Below, piece by piece: positions 5,987-7,636 of a stretch of DNA of 64,000 bases. The position numbers were made by a program, and so were the translations under genes. Each line of letters begins with the position of its first letter. The first letter of the stretch is position 1. Below the pieces are notes generated by a model. That model was not told where the DNA came from, made no database searches, and saw only the letters and a list, made by a program, of their open reading frames with translations. The stretch is from Natronococcus occultus SP4. Lineage in GTDB: Archaea; Halobacteriota; Halobacteria; Halobacteriales; Natrialbaceae. The DNA is taken from NCBI RefSeq assembly GCF_000328685.1, contig NC_019974.1, positions 3,153,001-3,217,000 of the forward strand, read 5' to 3'.

Positions 5987-7636
5987 TTAGTTCTTCTTCT
6001 TTTCTTTCTTCTTACCGTCCTTTCCCTTCCGATCCTTCTTGTCCTTCTTGTCTTTCTTGCCCTTCTTGTCCTTCTTGTCTTTCTTGTCCTTCTTGTCTTT
6101 CTTGCCCTTCTTGTCTTTCTTGCCCTTCTTGCCGTCCTCGTCGCCGTCGCCCTCGTTGACCGCGGTGGCTTCGGCCAGCTGGACGTTCTCGTTGGCCTGG
6201 TAGTTCATCTGTTCGGCCGTCGCCTCGCCGCAGTCGGTGGCGAAGGCGATCGCGGTGAACTGCTCGTTGACGTTCAGCTGGCTGACGAACTGGAGCTGGT
6301 CGATCTCGGCAGCAGCCGTCTGCTCGTCGGTATCGCCGTTCTCGTAGGCCAGTGCCCAGGAGTCGTCGCCGTTCGCGTCGGTTCCGTGGAGCACCGCGGA
6401 CCCGCTACAGTGGCCGTCCGAGACGTTCAGCGCCTCGGCGGAGGCGACCTGCGCGTTGAAGTTGCCCTGGTAGCTCACCTGGCGGGCCGTCGCGTCGCTC
6501 TTTTTCGTCGCGAGAGCGATCGCCGCGTGCTGCAGGCTGATGTTCTCCTGCCCGACGCGCTGGACCTGCGTGATGTCGGCCGACGCGTCCTGGCCGTTGG
6601 CCTGCTTGCTCCCGTCGTCGGTGCGCTTCACCGCGTCCTTCGGGAGTTCGCCGATCATCCCGGCGCGGTCGATGACGTCACGGGTGTACATCCTGTCGAA
6701 GTTGATCGCCGTCGCCTCGGCGACCTGCTCGTTCAGGTTGAGCTGCGAGCTCAGCTGGTAGGCCTCCGCCTTGCTGCACTTGCCGACGGCGATCGCGATC
6801 GCGACGCCCTGTTCGCTGACGTTGAGCTGGTTGACCTCCTGGGCCTGCTCGACCGACGCCTCGGCGTCCTGGTCGTCGGCTTCTCCGATGTTCGCCGCGA
6901 CGGCCTCGGCATGCTGGTAGTTCTCGTTTGCCTGCCAGCTCTGCTGGTAGGACTGGGCGCAGCTTCCGTCCTCCGCGACCGCGAGCGAGGCGCTCTGACT
7001 GCTGTAGTTGAACTGGTCGACGGTCTGTTCCTGCTCGATCGTCGCGGTGGCGGACTGGTCGCTCTCGTAGCTATCCTCCCTGGCGACCCAGCCGGAGAAC
7101 TTCCGGCAGCCGGTCTCCTCGGCGAACACAATGTACGCCCGTTCGGGCTCGTAGAACGTCTCGTCCCGGGTCTCCTCCGTGACGTTGAGCGAGTCGGCAG
7201 TTCCCTCCTGGGCGTTGACGTTGTCCTGTTCGGCCTCCTGGATCGCCGTTGCCTTGCCACCGTCGATGGCGATACTGATAGCGTTGCCCTGCTGGAGAAC
7301 GTTGAGCTGGGAAACATCCTGGTACTGCACGACGTTCGCGAACGACTCCTGTGCCTCGCCGTTGATCCGGTCTCGGTGGTCGTCGACCCACTTGCCGAGC
7401 CCCTTCTCGTCGGTGTCGGCACCGAAGACGAGGTACAGCTCGTCGCCGTTCAGGTCGTGGGTTTCGGGCTCCTCGTCTTTCTCGTCCTTCTTTTCGTCGC
7501 TCTTGTCCTTCTCCGAGCCCGCCTGCGTGGACGTCGACGCAACCGACAGCAACCCGGCGCCGGCGCCGCTGGCCGCGAGTCCTCGGAGGTATCCACGTCG
7601 CTTCATCGTTCCGCGGTTCGTGTCTTTCTCTGCCAT
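5987..7636 (-). CDS. Tat-exported surface protein with Q/N/A-rich beta-solenoid-like repeats and lysine-rich tail
   Basis: Not recognised as a named family. 549 residues. The N-terminus MKRRGYLRGLAASGAGAGLL (residues 11-30) is a twin-arginine-type signal. About five modules follow, near residues 100-151, 195-250, 258-312, 351-404 and 442-494. Each has two halves of the form Q-x3-Q-x-N-x3-Q ending in alternating Ala (AIAIA, AEATA). This regular Q/N ladder suggests a beta-solenoid or amyloid-like fibre subunit. Two YLVFGAD/YIVFAEE-type segments precede modules 1 and 2. Residues ~502-549 are almost only Lys, Asp and Gly in KDKK/GKKDKK units, highly unusual in an acidic halophile proteome. Monocistronic, divergent from glmU. 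Confidence 0.8.
   Translation of the reverse strand: MAEKDTNRGTMKRRGYLRGLAASGAGAGLLSVASTSTQAGSEKDKSDEKKDEKDEEPETHDLNGDELYLVFGADTDEKGLGKWVDDHRDRINGEAQESFANVVQYQDVSQLNVLQQGNAISIAIDGGKATAIQEAEQDNVNAQEGTADSLNVTEETRDETFYEPERAYIVFAEETGCRKFSGWVAREDSYESDQSATATIEQEQTVDQFNYSSQSASLAVAEDGSCAQSYQQSWQANENYQHAEAVAANIGEADDQDAEASVEQAQEVNQLNVSEQGVAIAIAVGKCSKAEAYQLSSQLNLNEQVAEATAINFDRMYTRDVIDRAGMIGELPKDAVKRTDDGSKQANGQDASADITQVQRVGQENISLQHAAIALATKKSDATARQVSYQGNFNAQVASAEALNVSDGHCSGSAVLHGTDANGDDSWALAYENGDTDEQTAAAEIDQLQFVSQLNVNEQFTAIAFATDCGEATAEQMNYQANENVQLAEATAVNEGDGDEDGKKGKKDKKGKKDKKDKKDKKDKKGKKDKKDKKDRKGKDGKKKEKKKN
5990..6133 (-). repeat. Tandem GKKDKK/KDKK-coding repeats
   Basis: Short DNA repeats alternating between aagaaggacaag-type and aagaagggcaag-type units on the minus strand encode the lysine-rich C-terminus of the surface protein. 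The tract is purine-rich on the coding strand and contrasts with the surrounding GC-rich sequence. Such repeats often expand or contract by slippage, so copy number may vary between strains. Confidence 0.85.

Follow-up and report, generated by a model that had tools for sequence, protein, structure and literature searches.

A stretch of the Natronococcus occultus SP4 genome (contig NC_019974.1, positions 3,153,001 to 3,217,000; these 64,000 nucleotides are the window referred to below) holds a gene for a repeat protein with a regular ladder of Gln and Asn, and the question it raises is what such a protein does outside a haloarchaeal cell. The original prediction, made from the nucleotide letters, was that of an exported and so far undescribed fibre or matrix protein. 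The gene is under purifying selection, as dN/dS lay between 0.11 and 0.50 in five comparisons with relatives by a simple NG86 estimate. The encoded protein has the twin-arginine-type start that was predicted for it (MKRRGYLRGLAASGAGAGLLSVASTSTQA), followed by a linker rich in Lys, Asp and Glu, a conserved LYLVFGAD...WV segment, five modules and a Lys/Asp/Gly tail (Table 1). Judged by its sequence, with an RRxF/YLK-type signal and then a hydrophobic stretch, the protein would be Tat-exported.

Table 1. Parts of the five-module gene and protein, in window coordinates.
Feature	Position	Strand	Residues	Basis
Complete gene, five-module exported protein	5987..7636	minus	549 aa + stop	ORF, homologues, dN/dS
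Twin-arginine-type signal region	7520..7636	minus	1-39	by eye; RRGYLR at residues 13-18
N-terminal conserved segment with ELYLVFGAD...WV	7355..7459	minus	60-94	conservation; model
Module 1	7181..7354	minus	95-152	module search and alignment
Linker 1-2 with second conserved motif YIVFAEE...FSGWV	7061..7180	minus	153-192	conservation
Module 2	6887..7060	minus	193-250	module search, two-module model, alignment
Module 3, separated from module 2 by a 4-residue linker	6698..6874	minus	255-313	module search, two-module model, alignment
Module 4	6422..6595	minus	348-405	module search and alignment
Module 5	6152..6325	minus	438-495	module search and alignment
Lys/Asp/Gly low-complexity tail, net +17	5990..6151	minus	496-549	composition

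The repeat pattern, foreseen as about five modules of two halves each, was clearly recovered. The motif Q...Q.N...Q has ten overlapping matches in the protein, i.e. ten half-modules, as compared to a mean of 0.02 and a maximum of 2 in 5000 shuffles. Homologues had been expected to vary in repeat number, which is not the case, since all of 50 non-redundant homologues have five modules (the raw count was 49, and the remaining one was a split hit read as six). The modules measure 58-59 residues and the linkers of the 50 homologues range from 4 to 69 aa. Within a protein the modules share 41-51% identity, whereas the equivalent module is 54-62% identical across proteins; the five modules are therefore old and positionally fixed, with no recent amplification.

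When the 250 modules of the 50 proteins were aligned, an inner set of columns could be picked that alternates strictly on both strands save for one phase shift at 22-25. It reads Q2 A4 A6 V8 Q10 Q12 V14 Q16 N18 N20 Q22 in the first strand, continues with A25 A27 A29 and a D/G turn, and resumes after the turn as A35 A37 Q39 S41 Q43 N45 N47 Q49 A51 A53 A55 N57. Mean entropy is 0.56 bits per inner column vs. 2.91 bits per outer column, and charged residues make up 0.4% of the inner and 27.9% of the outer positions. The alternating inner face is near-invariant and uncharged and the outer face varies, and the Gln/Asn ladder points to one side. Modules and linkers of the window protein together carry a net charge of -48. 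Inner residues that would face each other in the proposed arch showed no significant complementarity of volume or size (p 0.25), and therefore we make no claim on in-plane packing. Natronococcus has a poly-glutamine wall polymer, which was considered and dropped because the five-module protein has no poly-Gln run.

Structure prediction with AlphaFold2 (residues 60-500, 34 homologues) placed strands through every module and left the linkers disordered, with a mean pLDDT of 60.5 overall and about 80-93 in modules 2-5, in agreement with the repeated beta-strands that the ladder had led one to expect. In a two-module run with 50 homologues each module was modelled as three strands of 21, 7 and 25 residues, with a kink at the phase shift between the first two and a short turn ahead of the third; one of the five models was confident (pLDDT 78.6, the remaining four below 46). 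A Foldseek search of the two-module model against 350,542 chains gave FapC as the two nearest, neither of them significant (E 7e-3 and 1.6e-2; best TM 0.14), and below these SufB/SufD beta-helices, CsgA, ice-binding beta-helices and the HET-s fibril, again none significant. The full model ranked FapC and CsgA first, also below significance, and a second-look comparison gave it a Z of 2.9 to CsgA and the two-module model no Z of 2 or above. We take the Foldseek ranking as a hint at fold class and not as membership. The viral structure library yielded no usable match (best E 2e-3, TM 0.05).

The closest parallel in organization is FapC/FapB of Pseudomonas (PMC12392863), which resembles our protein in having few imperfect repeats of fixed number, variable linkers, conserved Asn/Gln and Ala, and secretion. 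In FapC the number of repeats stays within narrow limits (three in 94%), linkers vary and Asn/Gln are conserved (PMC12392863). Its fold is a stacked Greek-key cross-beta one with a layer for each repeat, and for the haloarchaeal protein one layer per module is predicted. However, the three FapC repeats are about 38-39 aa long with the motif GNxGxNxaaGxxNqQN, as compared to five repeats of 58-59 aa with another motif here, and the haloarchaeal family is archaeal with one clade exported by Tat. FapC chains in the PDB had no sequence match with the family profiles A1-A3, and a fapABCDEF cluster was not seen among the neighbours in the clustered loci. Membership of the Fap system was rejected, as motif, repeat number and operon all fail.

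With curli CsgA/CsgB (PMC10192328) the family shares an inner Gln/Asn ladder, alternating small and hydrophobic residues, and the combination of large and small secreted proteins with a common repeat, but the curli repeat is about 23 aa and the repeat number of the haloarchaeal family is fixed. That the spacing departs from the curli consensus, as noted at the outset, holds: strict and relaxed scans for the curlin motif N-x5-Q-x-G-x-x-N-x5-Q were negative, the loosest pattern, X6QX10Q, matched once, and the Pfam curlin repeat matched none of 34 family members. We rejected curli membership as well, since the motif is absent and no csg partners were found among the neighbours of 41 clustered loci. 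Amyloid-like surface proteins do have a precedent in archaea, e.g. the Methanospirillum hungatei sheath protein SH (PMC10593813), an extracellular beta-arch protein which by its description is set apart by a cap domain made of helices, sheets with antiparallel strands and its role in building a sheath, whereas the haloarchaeal family has repeated Gln/Asn modules. The biofilm matrix of Haloferax volcanii binds amyloid dyes, with HVO_1403 as the sole gene suggested (PMC4180959). That matrix is haloarchaeal, extracellular and amyloid-staining; the five-module family would be a candidate for it, and hits to the family outside Natrialbaceae are sporadic.

The family is undescribed, unnamed and haloarchaeal, which bears out the expectation of a novel protein. 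No Pfam family matched the window protein, and 34 homologues gave scattered sub-threshold matches alone; a match to the NCBIfam model formate_TAT covered just the signal region at 17.5 bits (cut-off 48.45) and was discarded. Sequence searches of solved structures returned chance-level or low-complexity matches, phage records contained no match to the five-module protein, and openly licensed papers gave no account of the family or of a described haloarchaeal amyloid. Several copies are plasmid-borne, and the plasmid records annotate homologues as 'hypothetical protein' or 'PGF-CTERM sorting domain-containing protein'. Of 391 Halobacteria genomes in a class-wide sample, 84 carry the family; 79 of these are Natrialbaceae (judged from named relatives) and a few belong to other families. 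In a phylum-wide sample of 295 genomes it was confined to Natrialbaceae. Each of nine Natronococcus genomes has at least one copy.

A maximum-likelihood tree of the 50 non-redundant homologues separates 22 with a Tat motif from 28 without it (split support 100/100). The signature RR[GDK][YF][LMV][KRS]G, read from sequence, is found in 22/22 members of the Tat clade, to which the window protein belongs, and the N-termini of the other 28 were assigned to the Sec type by appearance. Most Natronococcus genomes have the Tat type only, two the Sec type only and one has both, as if either would do. The PGF_CTERM sorting signal ends three homologues (L029, L058, L061) above the NCBI cut-off; an NCBIfam search did not find it in the window protein, which has the Lys tail in its place. 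Tat and Sec-type clades together with PGF-CTERM anchors on some Sec members indicate that the family is extracellular, and as these signals sit on separate branches of the tree, one common destination. The proposal of an exported protein is thereby sustained. Among the Sec-clade members 24 of 28 stop at most 7 residues past module 5, and in those the last layer consequently lacks a C-terminal cap. At the other end, the similar short motifs ELYLVFGAD...WV and AYIVFAEE...GWV lie on either side of module 1 (Table 1), related forms of both being kept in Tat and Sec clades; possibly they are two halves of one small cap domain. The first of them is by itself a possible cap in a part of the model where confidence is low. 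Lone C-terminal cysteines occur in Tat-clade homologues (L012, L014, L016, L018, L042, L043, L047) and likewise in Sec-clade ones (L021, L030, L059, L078). Natronococcus sp. A-GB7 has a shortened second copy (L044:4512-5699) with modules 4-5 only, 92% identical, fused to an unrelated N-terminal ORF, which is probably a broken gene.

Clustering of the neighbourhoods of 41 loci, in which most neighbours were named by recognition and not by profile, gave housekeeping genes and small paralogues as recurrent neighbours and no adjoining dedicated secretion or regulator genes. Next to the Tat-type gene in the window are genes for a sugar nucleotidyltransferase and a glmS-like product, and most of the other Natronococcus loci examined are arranged likewise. 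The Sec-type gene of Natrialbaceae often occupies a conserved site, flanked on one side by what we take, by recognition, to be CDC48 and LarC and on the other by a RadB-like gene with a Rad51 domain (Pfam), and there it is adjoined by one to three small secreted genes. Their products of about 100-180 aa have one module, or module halves in swapped order, and many share the near-constant start MKRALTxxLTVALxGSLMFMGFAGTAAA. At the equivalent site of the window genome (L004) the flank with CDC48 and LarC is kept, along with three small genes, and the big Sec-type gene is absent. These three secreted single-module genes lie between a LarC-like gene and an oxidoreductase (L004:5333-13389; G000:C1 about 3441332-3449388), with transposase-like ORFs among them (L004:9134-9875), and one of the products (L004:6941-7486) has several tandem KKDDDRKHADD repeats between signal and module. 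The matches of a small-module profile covered exactly the 84 genomes (of 391) that have the big protein and none without it; since the big protein is itself matched by this profile, what can be said firmly is that small modules never occur alone in the sampled genomes.

We propose that the window protein is a secreted structural protein, a stacked cross-beta matrix protein that is FapC-like and yet unrelated to FapC in sequence, and hold this to be about an even call. The export signal would take the protein outside the cell. Each module is predicted to fold into one beta layer, in which a short D/G turn connects two long strands and the Gln/Asn/Ala face points inward. Five such layers would stack in parallel into a short solenoid, and the edge layer of one subunit may stack onto the next to build a fibre or a felt within the matrix at the cell surface. 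Such end-to-end assembly would be allowed by exposed edge layers, as in the Sec-clade members that end close to module 5. The small single-module proteins might nucleate, cap or co-polymerise via the same layer motif, and the Lys/Asp tail would be a flexible extension of the Tat clade with no conserved ligand-binding domain. In favour of this reading are the ladder far above chance, the conserved inner face, the constant module number with variable linkers, the modelled strands, FapC as the nearest though non-significant structure, the uncapped ends in the Sec clade, the PGF-CTERM anchors and the small secreted genes next to the big one. Against it stand the lack of significance of the structure matches, the low confidence of most models, the absence of adjoining secretion or regulator genes and the volume comparison. 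Tat export also tells against it, as it implies folding ahead of secretion, which suits a folded solenoid better than an unfolded amyloid precursor. The wider idea of a two-component haloarchaeal functional-amyloid system that arose independently of curli and Fap, with a five-layer major subunit, exchangeable Tat/Sec export and single-layer proteins for nucleation, capping or co-assembly, is more tentative, and we regard it as possible and doubtful.

Polymerisation into fibres is the step we infer, and it is here that a different reading departs, in which the same layer fold belongs to a monomeric surface protein (an adhesin, a spacer or an S-layer associate) that never polymerises and is capped by the LYLVFGAD segment at one end and by the tail or a PGF-CTERM stalk at the other. 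We consider this somewhat unlikely, though worth keeping in mind, as the constant module number suits a monomer of defined length, Tat export implies that the clade of the window protein is folded beforehand, the conserved N-terminal segment could cap, and some homologues have a long D/T/E-rich stalk with PGF-CTERM. However, most Sec-clade members stop right past the last module with neither cap nor anchor, stand-alone single modules are odd partners for a monomer, and the inner Gln/Asn ladder is FapC-like. A soluble secreted beta-solenoid with another job, e.g. ice or mineral binding or a halocin-like antimicrobial with the small paralogues as effectors, is the least probable of the readings: ice-binding beta-helices do appear low in the Foldseek list and the small secreted proteins come in arrays, but the outer face varies, carries charges and lacks a regular Thr array, and no antimicrobial or antifreeze family in Pfam/NCBIfam matched above cut-off.

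The tail had been proposed to bind acidic S-layer glycans, DNA or polyphosphate, and if it did the work with the repeats as scaffold, the protein would be a matrix polyelectrolyte or ligand-binding protein. A Lys-rich tail is indeed present, 54 residues of 30 K, 12 D, 8 G, 2 E, 1 R and 1 N, and Lys-rich low-complexity tails recur in the Tat clade, among them that of the Haladaptatus sp. DYF46 homologue (L046:4932-6602) with its HRHGKKK repeats, 12 His and net charge of +23. The latter tail possibly binds metal. Net positive charge, on the other hand, is not conserved, being -3 in a 94%-identical sister and -3 to +23 across the Tat clade, and the Sec clade is without the Lys tail. Specific binding is therefore poorly supported, a conserved basic binding tail does not stand, and we find this explanation improbable.

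Returning to the stacked matrix protein, the five-module gene is a concrete candidate for the protein fibres of haloarchaeal biofilms, and the family offers specific genes in culturable species for asking whether haloarchaea build cross-beta matrix fibres. It also raises the question of how such fibres would fold and assemble at molar salt concentrations, with one version passing through Tat in folded form and the other apparently through Sec unfolded.
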